DNA of 39,161 bases, taken from the NCBI RefSeq assembly GCF_024697385.1, contig NZ_JAILFV010000123.1, positions 1 to 39,161 on the forward strand. Reading direction: 5' to 3'. Below, one piece after another: positions 6,052 to 31,506 of the stretch. The first letter of the stretch is position 1. Each line of letters begins with the position of its first letter. Under the pieces are notes generated by a model that saw only the letters and a list, made by a program, of their open reading frames with translations, ran no database searches and was not told the origin of the DNA. This DNA is from Anaerovibrio sp. (GTDB lineage: Bacteria; Bacillota; Negativicutes; Selenomonadales; Selenomonadaceae). The position numbers and the translations under genes were made by a program.

Positions 6052-7467
6052 TTATGCAATACCTGTAACCATATAGAAAATAACACACAGAAATGGCACC
6101 AAAAACTTCATTCCCATCAAAACAGCTATATCAGCATATGAATCCTTATGACTAAGTCCGCATATTGCCAACAGGGTGACCAATGCACCGCAATGTGGCA
6201 CAGGATCTATACCTATAGAGGAAATTGCAACGATACGATGCAGCACCTCCAAAGGAATCCCTGCAGCTATTGCCATCTGAGCCCATTGCTCACCCAGCAT
6301 TGACAAGGCAATAGTAAGACCACCTGAAGCTGACCCCGTAAAGCCACACATTACATTAGTGGTAAGAACTGCTGAGAAAAGAGGGCCCCCTCCAAAATCC
6401 AAGTTGAGGAGCAATTCCTTGACCACAGCAAATCCACCAAGGCTGACAACAACACACCCAAAAGCATAGCCTGAAGCAACATTCAGTACGGCACTGCAGG
6501 AAGATATGGCTGAGCCATTAATGGTTGGCAGCATGCCATCCTGCAAGCGCAAATGGCGTCTGGCAATAACAGCAGCAACTATACTGCTGAGAATAAGTGA
6601 AATACTGATGGACCAGCCTGCCGAAATCTTTGCTACCGACTGGGCCAGCAAGGAAATATGCAAATTGCCGAAAGAATCCAAGGAATTCTGATCCCAATGA
6701 AAACCCCAATCCCAACCAAAAGGATTTGATAATATTACATTCAAGACTATAACCATCACCAATGGAATACAGGAGATTTTCCAATCCGGTGCCGGCAGTT
6801 TATGGCGCCTTTGACCGAATTCTATATGACGGCCATAGCCCTCCCCCTGTGATTTCAGCCTATTGGCCCTAAAGGAGATCCAACCCCAGCCCATAACCAA
6901 AAATATCAGGGAAGCGAAAATACCGATACCGATACCAGACCAGGTCGAAGTCCCAAAATATGAGGAAGGAATAATATTCTGGATCTGTGGTGTGCCAGGA
7001 AGTGCAACCATTGCGAAGGAAAAGATACCCATCCACAGTGCCGCCGGCAGGAGCCTTTTCGGAATATCTGCCTTTTTAAACACCACAGCGCCAAAAGGAT
7101 ACATGACAAAGGCCACGACAAATACACTTAGACCACCATAGGTCAACGCACCACAACCCAAAAGTACGGCCAGAACAGCGCGTTTTTCACCTAAAATATC
7201 AATAATCTTCCCTGCAACCGAGGCTGCCATCCCGCCTTTTTCCATGAGACGGGCAAATATAGCACCAAATAAAAATATTGGGTAATAATTTTTGATATAC
7301 TCAGCTGCCTTAGTCATATAGAGCTCACTGAAAACAGGCAAAACCGCATATTCACTTCCCAAAGCAGCAACGACAGCAAACAATGGAGCTACCAAAATAA
7401 TTGATGCACCACGATATGCCATAAACATAAGACCAACCAGCGCAACAAATATTATTGCTGTGTCCAT
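6052..7467 (-). CDS. GntP-family permease (gluconate/organic acid:H+ symporter-like)
   Basis: A 471-residue membrane protein with about twelve hydrophobic helices. Residues such as RLMEKGGMA near 75 and the C-terminal DPVPHCGALVTLLAICG match the GntP family, which imports gluconate, hydroxybutyrate or related acids with protons. The substrate cannot be assigned. Start 7467 (MDTAII) is chosen because GGGGGAG lies eight bases upstream; an ATG at 7491 is in frame but would contain that site. It is monocistronic apart from the small downstream frame, with its own promoter about 60 bases upstream. Confidence 0.82.
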   Translation of the reverse strand: MDTAIIFVALVGLMFMAYRGASIILVAPLFAVVAALGSEYAVLPVFSELYMTKAAEYIKNYYPIFLFGAIFARLMEKGGMAASVAGKIIDILGEKRAVLAVLLGCGALTYGGLSVFVVAFVMYPFGAVVFKKADIPKRLLPAALWMGIFSFAMVALPGTPQIQNIIPSSYFGTSTWSGIGIGIFASLIFLVMGWGWISFRANRLKSQGEGYGRHIEFGQRRHKLPAPDWKISCIPLVMVIVLNVILSNPFGWDWGFHWDQNSLDSFGNLHISLLAQSVAKISAGWSISISLILSSIVAAVIARRHLRLQDGMLPTINGSAISSCSAVLNVASGYAFGCVVVSLGGFAVVKELLLNLDFGGGPLFSAVLTTNVMCGFTGSASGGLTIALSMLGEQWAQMAIAAGIPLEVLHRIVAISSIGIDPVPHCGALVTLLAICGLSHKDSYADIAVLMGMKFLVPFLCVIFYMVTGIA

Positions 7468-7525
7468 TAGATAATCTCCCCCTATTTCCATAAATGCAAA
7501 ATATTCCCAAACATAAGCAACTTCT

Positions 7526-7556
7526 ATATTAAATCAATCCAGAAAACAAATGTCAA
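7526..7556 (-). promoter_or_regulatory. Probable sigma-A promoter of the GntP-family gene
   Basis: On the minus strand the -35 is a consensus TTGACA (7551-7556). A -10 of TTTAAT (17-base spacer) or TAATAT (19) follows. Confidence 0.6.
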
Positions 7557-7621
7557 GGCAAAAATTGGCAGTAGGTAACAATAATAATAAATTCTATGAT
7601 TTTGTTATTATTTTATATAAT

Positions 7622-7638
7622 TATAACTTAAAGTTATA
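7622..7638. promoter_or_regulatory. 17-bp palindrome upstream of the GntP-family promoter
   Basis: TATAACTT-A-AAGTTATA is a perfect dyad with 8-bp arms, centred about 75 bp upstream of the -35. It could be a regulator binding site. The region is very AT-rich, so chance symmetry is possible. Confidence 0.4.
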
Positions 7639-7847
7639 GAAGTATTCATCTAACTATTCCCACAAAGTTGAACCTGCCTCTACCTCATCGGACTGACTCC
7701 CTTGGCAAACATTGTACATATCCTTTATGTTTGGGACTTCAAACCACCATCTATCAGGATAAAAATTGACTGAAATGTATTTTGACAATTCCGGTATAAT
7801 ACCATTGTATCAACAGCTTACCGAAACTTCGCATTCAATAGCAACAG
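7639..7847. other. Intergenic stretch with no recognised gene
   Basis: Between the palindrome and the last terminator of the B12-riboswitch transcript I see no convincing reading frame. A TTGACA and a TATAAT occur on the plus strand near 7780-7796 but only seven bases apart, so they do not form a promoter. Confidence 0.5.
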
Positions 7848-7895
7848 GAAAAAATAAAGCTAGCTTTCGAACAGCTCCACCTGTCGAAAGCTAGC
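7848..7895 (-). terminator. Strong intrinsic terminator (third in series)
   Basis: On the minus strand a perfect 12-bp stem, GCTAGCTTTCGA with TCGAAAGCTAGC, is followed by TTTATTTTTT. It is the last of three terminator-like hairpins below the cobalamin riboswitch. Confidence 0.8.
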
Positions 7896-7962
7896 GTTGC
7901 ACGAAGCAACAAAAGAATGAAATGTATGAGCAATGTTTTTCCTGCAGCGCTGAAACCGCAAG

Positions 7963-8006
7963 AAAAAACCTTTCGTCGAACATAGACTCCGCTAAGTGAC
8001 GAAAGG
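7963..8006 (-). terminator. Intrinsic terminator (second in series)
   Basis: On the minus strand CCTTTCGTC pairs with GACGAAAGG and is followed by TTTTTTC. It begins four bases after the stop of the 16-codon frame below the B12 riboswitch. Confidence 0.82.
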
Positions 8007-8010
8007 ATAT

Positions 8011-8061
8011 TTACACGATATAAGCAAATATGTATGCACCTATGACAGTAATACCTGTCAT
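8011..8061 (-). CDS. 16-codon mini-ORF under cobalamin riboswitch control (uncertain)
   Basis: The frame MTGITVIGAYIFAYIV starts right after the T-run of the riboswitch terminator. An AGGA in the terminator's 3' arm lies eight bases before the ATG, so the terminator hairpin would also hide its ribosome site. The peptide is hydrophobic, like a very short membrane peptide. It fits exactly between two terminators. It may equally be untranslated RNA. No homologue is known to me. Confidence 0.3.
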   Translation of the reverse strand: MTGITVIGAYIFAYIV

Positions 8062-8092
8062 AAAAAAAATCCTGACAACCCAGCCAGGATTC
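8062..8092 (-). terminator. Riboswitch expression-platform terminator
   Basis: On the minus strand AATCCTG pairs with CAGGATT across a ten-base loop, followed by eight T. It lies about 60 bases below the cobalamin aptamer, the usual place for a B12-responsive transcription terminator. Confidence 0.85.
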
Positions 8093-8151
8093 AGCACACA
8101 AAAGAATGCCAAAATCCCCTTCCCCATCACTCGCAGGTCAAACGGTGATTG

Positions 8152-8323
8152 TTAAACAGGCAGTTCTCCTGACTCCAGATCATTGCTGCACCACGCCTTC
8201 CCAGATAAAATCCAGTGACATATTGTGATGCGCTCCCTAATACAGTGGCGGGACCGTGCTGGCATTTAACCAGCTTATCTTGTTAGGCCATACTAATATA
8301 AGTAATAGGCACCTGTTCCAATC
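8152..8323 (-). promoter_or_regulatory. Cobalamin (B12) riboswitch aptamer
   Basis: The minus strand carries the conserved cobalamin aptamer blocks in order: ACAGGTGCC, then GCCAGCACGGTCCCGCCACTGT, GGGAAGGCG, and the closing GAGTCAGGAGAACTGCCTG. This RNA senses adenosyl- or methylcobalamin and normally turns off uptake or synthesis genes. A consensus promoter lies just upstream and a terminator downstream. Unusually, no recognisable gene follows for about 600 bases; the next one is the GntP-family permease with its own promoter, beyond two more terminators. Confidence 0.95.
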
Positions 8324-8359
8324 AATATGAAATTCTGAAGCTAATGCTTCACAAGTGAC

Positions 8360-8388
8360 ATAATATCACTTTACTTATACCATGTCAA
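8360..8388 (-). promoter_or_regulatory. Sigma-A promoter of the cobalamin riboswitch transcript
   Basis: On the minus strand the -35 is a perfect TTGACA, the spacer 17 bases and the -10 TATTAT. Expected start near 8353, about 30 bases before the aptamer. Confidence 0.85.
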
Positions 8389-8531
8389 CAGATTACAGCA
8401 CAGTTGTTGTTTTTTTCTTTTTTAGCAAAATTACATTCAGTTTTTCGGCTACAAGGCTGCCTTTCCCTATGCATCAAAAGACCTGCCTATATAACCTGTA
8501 GCTTTGTCGCATAAGGCGTTGTTATCCTTCA

Positions 8532-29438: not shown

Positions 29439-30074
29439 TCAGCTTAAGAGATTATGCTTCAAAGCATAGTCCACCAGTTCTGATTTTTGAGTACATCCTA
29501 ACTTTTGCATCAGCCTGGTTTTATAGGTTGATACCGTTTTAATGGAAATATACAGCTTTTCAGCAATAACCGATAATGAATAGCCATGAACCAGCAGTGC
29601 CAATACCTCCCGTTCACGCTTAGACAGCTCCACCAGCTCCGGTGGCTCATTAATCAGACTGTCTATAAGCAGATAGGCATCCTTTGCCCCCAGATATCTG
29701 CCACCATCGGCCACAGTCCGTATTGCCTGAAACAGCTCTGAATCCAATGAATCCTTACATAAATATCCATCAGCCCCCTGCATCATTACCTCTTTTATAT
29801 ATTGCTGTTCACTATACATTGTCAATATCAGTACCTTCACCTGATAATTACGCAGTCGTATTTCCCTCAGGCATTCGATGCCGCCCATACCTGGCATGGA
29901 TAAATCCATCAACACCAAATCTATGTTACCACGGGCCAGCTTTTCCAACGCTTCCTTACCATCAGAAGCCTCATCTACAACCTGAAAATCATTTTGTGAA
30001 GAGAGCAGCATCTTCATTCCTGTGCGTAAAACCCGATGGTCATCAACCAACAGGATTCTTAAACCCTTGGCCAT
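29439..30074 (-). CDS. Response regulator, NarL/FixJ (LuxR-type) family
   Basis: A 211-residue two-component regulator. The receiver domain (5-120) has Asp11-Asp12, the phosphorylated Asp57 in LVLMDLSMPGMGG and Lys106; the C-terminal LuxR helix-turn-helix (about 145-208) contains LSKREREVLALLVHGYS and KTVSTYKTRLMQKL. Start 30074 has GGGGAGG nine bases upstream and overlaps the kinase gene by 32 bases. It most resembles UhpA/HptR-type activators. The inverted repeat near the antiporter promoter is a likely target (inference). Confidence 0.93.
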   Translation of the reverse strand: MAKGLRILLVDDHRVLRTGMKMLLSSQNDFQVVDEASDGKEALEKLARGNIDLVLMDLSMPGMGGIECLREIRLRNYQVKVLILTMYSEQQYIKEVMMQGADGYLCKDSLDSELFQAIRTVADGGRYLGAKDAYLLIDSLINEPPELVELSKREREVLALLVHGYSLSVIAEKLYISIKTVSTYKTRLMQKLGCTQKSELVDYALKHNLLS

Positions 30075-31506
30075 TTAAAAGTTCCTCCCCTTCTTCTAGC
30101 TCATATATTGGTAATTCAACAGTAATTGTAGTTCCTTTATTTATACCGGTAACGAGCTTAAAACTGCCGTCCAGGAGCTGGGCCCTTTCCTTCATGCTCA
30201 CCAGGCCTAAATGTCTGTTCAGACGGGCTTCCTCAGCCTCATCCTCACTAAAGCCCCTTCCATCGTCATATACAGTCAGCACCAGCATTACTCCGTCAGA
30301 TTCCAGATCTACCCTGATATTGGTTGGCGCAGCATGCTTAATACTATTTGCCACGGCTTCCTGTATTGTCCTGTAGCACATTAGGGCTATAGGCTTGGGC
30401 AAATCATTAAAATTCCCCTTATGGCAGAAATCTATTTTTATATCCGGATTAATTTTAACGAGTGGATCCAGATATTTCTCTATGGCGACAATCAGTCCCA
30501 AATCATCCAGCAGCGGTGGATGCAGATTTACTGCCAGCTGCCTTATCCCGCCCAGGGTAGCTGCTGTAAGCTGCCTAATCTCAAACAACATTTCTCTTTG
30601 TTCATCAGTATCCAACCGGTCATGTAAAATCCTCAGATAAGTGAGTATAGATGCCATTGATTGACTACTTTCATCGTGGAGCTCCCGTGATATACGGTGC
30701 TGTTCATCTTCACGGGCTTTAAACAGCTGATTTATCAGCCATATTCTATCCTGCTCCTTGAGCTTCAACTCCTCAAGAAGATGGTTATTTTCCTCAGTAT
30801 TTTTCTTAATCTGGGCACTCATGCGGTTAAAGGTTTCAGCCAGCTTTCCTACCTCATCACCGGCATAAACAGGTACAACTACACCATAATTACCCTTTTC
30901 CAGCTGATTGACACCATATGCCAATTTACTGATAGGCCGCAGGAAGTACCATGCATATCTGGATGCCATAAAGGATGCAAAAGCACACAGCAACAGCACT
31001 GCTATACCTGTTTCCATGCTTCGTTCCTGAAGGATATACATCATCTTTTTTTCTGACATGCCAACGCGGATATAGCCTATCATACCTTCATCCACCGGAA
31101 CCATTATTTCGCGGATGCGGCCTTCACTGCTGGCATACAATATAGAATCTATCCCCTTGGTGCCATCATATATCCGTTTAGGATTTAATCCCTCAGGCAG
31201 CATATTACCAAAGGTTGAAAACATGACCTCACCATTTGGGTATGTAACTATTATATACCTAACCTGTTCATTAGTATCCATTGTTCTGGATAATCTGTCC
31301 CAAAGGGAAAATTTATCATCAAACAATATATCATTACCCACTGTTACAGCCAAGGAGGATGCCAATTCCTGCCCGGAGCCGATAAGGCCGTCTTCCATAT
31401 ATTTGCTTATGGACATCAACAGCATGCAGCCCATAATCATTCCACAAAAAAAGATTGTGCCTACAATTAATACATTAAACTTAAAATAAATTCCTTTATT
31501 GCTCAT
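30043..31506 (-). CDS. Sensor histidine kinase (HisKA_3, NarX/UhpB/HptS-like)
   Basis: A 487-residue membrane kinase. Two membrane helices (about 9-31 and 164-188) frame a periplasmic domain, followed by HAMP (188-240), the HisKA_3 dimerisation helix with phospho-His277 in HRISRELHDESSQS, and the ATPase domain with NSIKHA and DDGRGFSEDE. The periplasmic part probably contacts the lipoprotein encoded just upstream, as known for HptA-HptS. The ATG lies seven bases after the lipoprotein gene. Confidence 0.92.
   Translation of the reverse strand: MSNKGIYFKFNVLIVGTIFFCGMIMGCMLLMSISKYMEDGLIGSGQELASSLAVTVGNDILFDDKFSLWDRLSRTMDTNEQVRYIIVTYPNGEVMFSTFGNMLPEGLNPKRIYDGTKGIDSILYASSEGRIREIMVPVDEGMIGYIRVGMSEKKMMYILQERSMETGIAVLLLCAFASFMASRYAWYFLRPISKLAYGVNQLEKGNYGVVVPVYAGDEVGKLAETFNRMSAQIKKNTEENNHLLEELKLKEQDRIWLINQLFKAREDEQHRISRELHDESSQSMASILTYLRILHDRLDTDEQREMLFEIRQLTAATLGGIRQLAVNLHPPLLDDLGLIVAIEKYLDPLVKINPDIKIDFCHKGNFNDLPKPIALMCYRTIQEAVANSIKHAAPTNIRVDLESDGVMLVLTVYDDGRGFSEDEAEEARLNRHLGLVSMKERAQLLDGSFKLVTGINKGTTITVELPIYELEEGEELLNGQGFKNPVG

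Follow-up and report, generated by a model that had tools for sequence, protein, structure and literature searches.

A cobalamin riboswitch without an adjoining gene in Anaerovibrio may control a base-pairing small RNA with a B12-sparing effect

Riboswitches usually act on their own mRNA. On the minus strand of the Anaerovibrio sp. DNA analysed here (39,161 nt, contig NZ_JAILFV010000123.1, referred to as the window) a cobalamin riboswitch is followed by no ordinary gene, which raises the question of what it controls. An earlier note, made from the letters of this stretch, had described a complete B12 aptamer with a promoter and its own terminator, then about 215 bases with two further strong terminators, and finally a gene with its own promoter. 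All of these elements were recovered (Table 1). RF00174 matched over its full length (model positions 1-189 of 189) and scored 93.5 bits (gathering score 31.5); the genome of the window holds six B12 riboswitches. Promoter P1 agrees with the consensus at 11 of 12 positions. When the window is aligned with 15 relatives, its TTGACA can be seen in 15 of the 16 sequences, the 16th being misaligned at that place. The expression platform, an intrinsic terminator (T1) of presumed usual polarity, lies directly downstream of the aptamer, and the about 215 conserved bases 3' of it carry two more predicted terminators (T2 and T3). The predicted fold of 7845-8062 amounts to -76.6 kcal/mol (z -6.8 against shuffles) and leaves hairpins A and B separated by unpaired bases around 7935-7913, among which lies a sequence that we call the seed. 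A search of 7480-8150 against Rfam gave no known RNA above threshold; eight weak matches (up to E 10), including RyhB and PyrR, all stayed below their gathering scores.

Table 1. Features of the riboswitch-small RNA unit and of the neighbouring gene, in the order of transcription (window coordinates).
Feature	Position	Strand	Description and basis
Promoter P1 of the riboswitch-sRNA unit	8360-8388	-	TTGACA-17-TATTAT, TG before the second hexamer
Cobalamin riboswitch aptamer	8142-8331	-	RF00174; in 15/15 same-genus genomes
T1, riboswitch terminator	8067-8092	-	intrinsic, U run to about 8062
T2, second hairpin	7969-8006	-	followed by U run 7968-7963; fold and alignment
Hairpin A	7936-7967	-	directly upstream of the seed; fold and arm-swap test
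Seed	7919-7935	-	CATTGCTCATACATTTC, predicted single-stranded, complementary to candidate target mRNAs; fold and searches
Hairpin B	7896-7910	-	3' of the seed; predicted fold
T3, final sRNA terminator	7847-7895	-	U-rich tail; fold (hairpin 7895-7859) and alignment
P2, promoter-like site of the neighbouring transporter gene	7528-7556	-	TTGACA 7556-7551, 17 nt, TTTAAT 7533-7528
Neighbouring transporter gene	6052-7491	-	479 aa; weak CitMHS similarity, below cut-off; outside the sRNA

The element is present in all 15 further genomes of the genus, as seen in a search with 7800-8400. The 200 bases downstream of the riboswitch, whose lack of conservation would have spoken against a functional RNA, are conserved among these genomes, in a shorter form in two of them (G003 and G011), and in loci L037 and L039 a terminator of different build stands directly before the seed. 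The gap at 7500-7850 contains no gene in the alignments of same-genus sequences. The earlier note had allowed for a deleted target gene or a tiny peptide. An 88-aa open frame with a TTG start does span 7835-8101, but it has no Pfam match, and frame-breaking indels occur in 7 of the 16 aligned sequences (a 5-nt insertion in six, a 1-nt deletion in one). These fall inside the best-conserved stretch, so that any reading frame would shift, and a peptide is therefore rejected. As for a remnant of a lost B12 gene, the relatives share the gene-less arrangement and none of the same-genus genomes has a conserved gene in the gap. We regard both ideas as extremely improbable. A promoter of its own, an intrinsic terminator and no conserved reading frame are features expected of a trans-acting small RNA (sRNA).

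In all 16 sequences of the genus the next conserved gene is that of the transporter; the gene upstream varies. The whole region could hence be read as an extended 5' leader belonging to the transporter gene, with stacked attenuators, its conserved stretches being cis antitermination elements, and the transporter also adjoins the sRNA at two of 13 loci from other genera (L048 and L060, of another genus). Against a leader speaks the promoter-like site P2 between T3 and the transporter, the downstream promoter of the earlier note, whose CTTGACA is kept in 16/16 aligned sequences, and 11 of the 13 loci from other genera lack a transporter homologue on the locus (two of those loci are short). We reject the leader reading because of this conserved second promoter and the different neighbours in other genera; it would also leave unexplained the near-invariant single-stranded seed and the complementary sites at cbi and mutase genes described below, and has in our view only a slim chance of being correct. 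Upstream of the transporter promoter, at 7615-7640, most aligned sequences contain a conserved ATAAC...GTTAT palindrome, perhaps a regulator site. In six Anaerovibrio loci (L030, L031, L032, L033, L040, L041) a second B12 aptamer lies about 2 kb downstream, between the transporter and a CbiK gene, the identity of the latter being confirmed by Pfam for one locus (L040). At three Schwartzia loci (L052, L071, L073) a CbiK-like gene follows 355-563 nt downstream of the seed; Pfam confirms CbiK for L052. In one group of the uncultured genus g13 (L299, L300, L303, L309, L312, L317) a tRNA gene on the opposite strand stands close behind the sRNA, and genus g7 (L196, L204, L205, L206) apparently has two seed-bearing RNA copies in tandem.

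The exact 17-mer CATTGCTCATACATTTC was found in 60 of 189 genomes of Selenomonadaceae, the family to which Anaerovibrio belongs, and in none of the 191 genomes from the rest of the class, with 0/380 for the reversed control; some of the matches are target sites (G108, G110, G121, G135, G136, each also with another copy). An exact motif search for the pattern CATTGCTCATACATTN{0,1}CATT among 84,980 species genomes yielded 33 loci. Twenty-eight of them are sRNA loci of Selenomonadaceae/Selenomonadales with a B12 aptamer upstream (by cmscan for 14, by alignment to the unit of the window for 14 Anaerovibrio loci), and one (L078) is a cbiK leader, i.e. a target, which by inspection matches L282. The remaining four (L058, L059, L065, L066) belong to other taxa and showed no B12 aptamer in cmscan; by our own reckoning this is about the number expected by chance. 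A further 20 g13 sRNA loci, seed variants included, all have RF00174 upstream (cmscan), giving an upstream B12 aptamer in 48/48 sRNA loci checked. The invariance of the seed is partly due to construction, as the first search used the exact string; in a search of g13 that allowed up to three mismatches, 50 of 66 genomes gave a match and the same 17 positions were nearly unchanged; the reversed control also produced a few matches.

From genus to genus the sequence of hairpin A varies, but its stem is preserved. Among 24 distinct sequences the hairpin's own arms paired with a mean of -11.45 kcal/mol versus -7.32 kcal/mol (sd 0.56) for permuted arms, and 0/10,000 permutations were as good. RNAalifold returned no consensus pairs for the 16 segments comprising hairpin A and the seed, because stem lengths differ among them. 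The conserved succession of promoter, aptamer, terminator, RNA and final terminator, together with a near-invariant stretch predicted to be single-stranded, thus favours the earlier proposal of a B12 riboswitch driving a regulatory RNA.

A strict complement pattern of the seed gave 43 matches in 37 of the 189 family genomes and 0 for the reversed control. These include the sRNAs, five g13 cbiK leaders, one methylmalonyl-CoA mutase start codon (G120) and seven sites upstream of cbiL or cbiF in five genomes. At these seven sites the predicted pairing with the genome's own sRNA ranges from -23.8 to -32.6 kcal/mol; the cbiL and cbiF sites belong to the A. slackiae group and are positioned upstream of the Shine-Dalgarno (SD) sequence. 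Other strict matches lie upstream of genes for an SLH-domain porin and sugar-binding-like proteins (L181, L198, L203), possible further targets, and two in g17 genomes have no start nearby. A looser pattern (G-U allowed, up to two mismatches) was applied to 16 Anaerovibrio genomes and returned the sRNA itself in 15 of them, plus 21 other matches; as the reversed pattern gave 11, many of the 21 are chance matches. Four of the 21 are located upstream of cbiL or cbiF in G001 and G014, with the gene families confirmed. At four Anaerovibrio loci (L095, L096, L099, L104) a G-U rich seed complement covers the start of a cysteine-rich gene (DUF1847-like by our reading), near the chance level of this looser search. 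When 20 cbi regions were scanned, leader sites ranked top and one window in a coding region also reached -23; shuffled seeds, run on 8 of the 20 regions with a coarser step, produced 0 or 1 windows each at ≤ -22. No B12 riboswitch was detected in eight cbi regions of four Anaerovibrio genomes, and the genomes of the window's own subclade have no strong site at cbiL or cbiF. Pairing with transcripts of B12 pathways, which the earlier note had proposed looking for, is thus predicted from complementary sites at cbi leaders and mutase starts.

A CbiK match is present in 62 of the 66 g13 genomes. Of 30 g13 cbiK loci examined, a site at ≤ -18 is present in 22, and the remaining eight reach nothing better than -12.2. 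With 20 more regions and three earlier loci added, a script counted the site in 40 of 52 leaders (53 loci were taken from the 62 genomes with a CbiK match, and one start was not found). It missed the sites of G088, G103 and G120, which are visible by eye (start mis-picked or not found), and 40/52 is therefore a lower count. Regarding co-occurrence in g13, 32 genomes have both sRNA and cbiK site, 3 the sRNA only, 8 the site only and 9 neither (Fisher p 0.0008), a table blurred by incomplete assemblies and kinship and with sRNA presence assigned by hand. None of ten site-bearing g13 cbiK loci scanned has a B12 riboswitch, against one (G104) of ten site-less loci. Set beside the six Anaerovibrio loci and G104, where cbiK has a riboswitch of its own, these ten g13 loci with an sRNA site and no riboswitch suggest that cis control has been swapped for trans control at this gene.

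The bases 3' of the seed also match the g13 cbiK leaders, and they do so species-specifically: sRNA CATTTCTTTGCTGAGGA goes with leader TCCTCAGCAAAGAAA, CATTTCAAG with CTTGAAATG, and CATTTCAATCG with CGATTGAAATG. From 44 cbiK leader loci, 42 with the motif and 26 of these also with the sRNA, we obtained 26 cognate pairs with a mean of -39.4, versus -33.3 (sd 0.93) for permuted pairs, and 0/10,000 permutations were as good. Close relatives share sequence types, and the fairer figure is therefore that from six types with one representative each, in which the true sRNA-leader pairing was the best of 720. Types A, B and C contribute most of the signal. For types E and F, pairing with the cognate leader is at best barely stronger than with other leaders, and B-type sRNAs pair with the D leader about as well as its cognate sRNA does. 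This co-variation result applies to cbiK of g13, and covers neither the mutase nor the genus of the window.

The site in the g13 cbiK leaders is likewise upstream of the SD, and on its 5' side is an arm predicted to be able to pair with the SD region. According to the fold model, the SD is as paired as before when the seed site alone is blocked. When the site and 16 upstream nt are blocked, a length chosen because the extended pairing covers roughly that stretch, the unpaired probability of the SD goes up in 9/9 leaders, from strong opening (0.20 to 0.95) down to a gain of 0.06 (G107, G102). At the place of hairpin B, 15 of 26 g13 sRNAs carry GCTG, mostly as GCTGAGGA, a complement of the cbiK leader's anti-SD; in the commonest g13 sRNA type GCTGAGGA matches the anti-SD TCCTCAGC. 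cbiK is thereby the only target for which activation is supported by predicted structure. The same blocking hardly changed SD accessibility in cbiL of G014. Activation of cbiF by SD opening was considered and rejected, as the accessibility of the SD in cbiF of G001 falls from 0.52 to 0.37.

The second group of sites concerns B12-dependent methylmalonyl-CoA mutase. Forty g13 mutA starts were fetched, of which two were not found and dropped; 37 of the 38 others pair with the seed across the start codon at ≤ -16 kcal/mol, and one at -13.0. Other g13 gene starts (n=89) have a mean of -7.4, with 0/89 at ≤ -14. Replacing the codons by random synonymous ones, with the upstream bases kept, gave a mean of -12.3 (sd 0.7) versus -19.5 observed, with 0/500 sets as good, in a comparison of related genes with a median per-gene fraction of 0.08; more than the mutA protein sequence is therefore conserved. 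The mutA match is of similar strength in 12 genomes without a found sRNA (mean -18.6) and in 26 with one (-19.9), and therefore does not track the sRNA.

In the window's genome two mutase genes, both with PF01642, have complementary starts: mcmA (548 aa, C78:12339) with TATGAGCAATG forms 11 Watson-Crick pairs with the seed, and mutA (C78:4383) with TGTATGAGTGA forms 11 pairs including G-U. Both stand near the top, at ranks 2 and 4, among 78 starts from seven stretches of this genome when a 22-nt seed is used, a length chosen after a 35-nt sRNA segment had given noisy target prediction in Anaerovibrio. When the sRNA segment is longer, mutA of the window drops to rank 11 of 78, the A. slackiae group is no outlier and the JC8 group ranks 1 or 2. 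Rank 1 of 78 is the start of a histidine-kinase-like gene (MSNKGIYFKF..., window 30043-31506, minus strand) at -18.2 kcal/mol. ATGAGCAATG is kept in all 14 mcmA loci examined (10 by script and 4 more), where the first protein residues are conserved too. Because the subclade has no strong cbiL or cbiF site, and in six relatives a riboswitch precedes cbiK itself, the targets of the window rest on the 11-bp matches at mutase starts, and mcmA and mutA are accordingly the less certain targets. The mutA gene is itself preceded by a B12 riboswitch and a terminator-like hairpin (L042 3956-4143, contig C78), an unexpected arrangement if this riboswitch is an ordinary off-switch. Contig C200 carries an aptamer with almost the same score.

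A start-codon site implies repression of the mutase, and the structure predictions point to activation of cbiK. One may instead suppose that the sRNA base-pairs with another outcome, repressing the cbi genes or causing decay of their mRNA, or that the mutase is no real target. The sign at the cbi leaders does depend on predicted structures, moderate for cbiK and failing for cbiF, and the g13 mutA match does not follow sRNA presence. On the other hand, repressing B12 synthesis at low B12 makes little sense, the commonest g13 sRNA type matches the cbiK anti-SD, and mutase starts are set apart from the starts of other genes; we therefore hold such an outcome to be unlikely.

The proposed logic resembles that of RyhB, whose sparing response represses users and favours acquisition of a scarce cofactor. 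The sensor differs, being the protein Fur for RyhB and a riboswitch on the same transcript for the Anaerovibrio sRNA. The RyhB covariance model (RF00057) scored 15 bits, below its gathering score of 55, which indicates no family relation.

ANTAR dual hairpins have A1/G4 hexaloops. Inspection of the window sequence revealed none, and the predicted loops UUCAGC, GUGGAG and UGGGUU do not fit. This bears on a further explanation, in which the RNA is a protein sponge that binds an RNA-binding regulator, as do the two precedents named in the earlier note. Rli55 of Listeria and EutX of Enterococcus have their own promoter, a B12 riboswitch with terminator and a short regulatory RNA, and the full form of Rli55, of about 450 nt, is made without B12 (PMC5821096, PMC8079631). 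They sequester EutV through ANTAR hairpins, whereas the conserved part of the Anaerovibrio RNA is a seed predicted to be single-stranded. The precedent thus holds for the layout of a B12 riboswitch with a stand-alone RNA and fails for the ANTAR-type loops, which the window's predicted hairpins lack. The shared layout would suit a sponge, as would a loop resembling GGUGGA that many members have in their last terminator; however, the best-conserved segment is predicted to be unpaired and is complementary to specific mRNAs, and the bases flanking it co-vary with cbiK in g13. A sponge as the explanation appears very unlikely to us; a sponge role could be an additional function beside base-pairing.

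AspocR of Listeria, the third precedent, is a non-coding RNA terminated by a B12 riboswitch, with the full RNA at low B12 and a suggested trans action on mRNA (PMC8079631). AspocR is a 1,400-nt antisense RNA to the neighbouring pocR, whereas the Anaerovibrio RNA has no gene opposite and its predicted targets are distant. No plus-strand frame of at least 60 aa lies over 7848-8142, and the RNA is therefore not a cis-antisense RNA, which sets this part of the earlier note aside. SreA of Listeria is a terminated SAM riboswitch that base-pairs in trans with the distant prfA mRNA (PMC8079631). There the terminated aptamer itself, made at abundant ligand, does the pairing; in Anaerovibrio the segment expected to pair is downstream of the terminator and would be made at scarce ligand. 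The sRNAs OmrA and OmrB act on E. coli btuB beside its cobalamin riboswitch (PMC11162775). There the sRNAs are molecules distinct from the riboswitch whose mRNA they target, whereas in Anaerovibrio sRNA and riboswitch would form one transcript. Among titles and abstract beginnings of the open-licence literature we found no B12 riboswitch with a base-pairing sRNA and cbi or mutase targets. A riboswitch-controlled regulatory RNA as such is already known; the mode of action proposed for this one would be new, and it probably governs a regulon.

Taken together, we consider it likely that the element, carried by rumen and gut bacteria, is a stand-alone, riboswitch-gated sRNA which acts in trans by base-pairing and has a B12-sparing effect. 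This reading draws on the conserved unit, the seed, the covariation of hairpin A, the complementary sites and the co-variation of sRNA and cbiK, all of which are properties of the compared sequences; from these we infer expression, the polarity of the riboswitch and repression or activation at each target. Transcription would begin at P1. With B12 bound, the aptamer would favour T1 and only a short leader would be made, going by the usual polarity of the class; at low B12, read-through of T1 would give an RNA of up to about 500 nt that ends at T3. Its exposed seed GCAUUGCUCAUACAUUUC (ACAUUGC... in the window), held between two hairpins, would pair with mRNAs from cobamide metabolism. Where this pairing covers the start codon of the B12-dependent mutase genes, translation would be blocked. 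At the cbiK leader of g13 it would probably open the inhibitory hairpin, with GCTGAGGA of the sRNA capturing the anti-SD TCCTCAGC. The net result would be a B12-sparing response at low B12, in which synthesis is favoured and the mutase lowered. For the broader claim that one riboswitch-gated sRNA governs a B12-sparing regulon throughout the family, with the mutase repressed, cobalamin synthesis activated (cbiK through an SD-mimic hairpin) and a swap between cis and trans control, we see the balance as close to even, leaning slightly in favour.

Of the B12 exceptions known so far, Rli55/EutX and AspocR, each is confined to a single local system. If a riboswitch does produce a base-pairing sRNA with several targets, a metabolite sensor would have become a regulator of wider reach, and no protein would be needed. 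It would then also be worth looking in other gene-less B12 riboswitches for a seed rather than for a missing gene. The culturable rumen species Anaerovibrio lipolyticus and A. slackiae offer a directly testable case, and the arrangement would suggest how bacteria that rely on the mutase balance their supply of B12 against demand.
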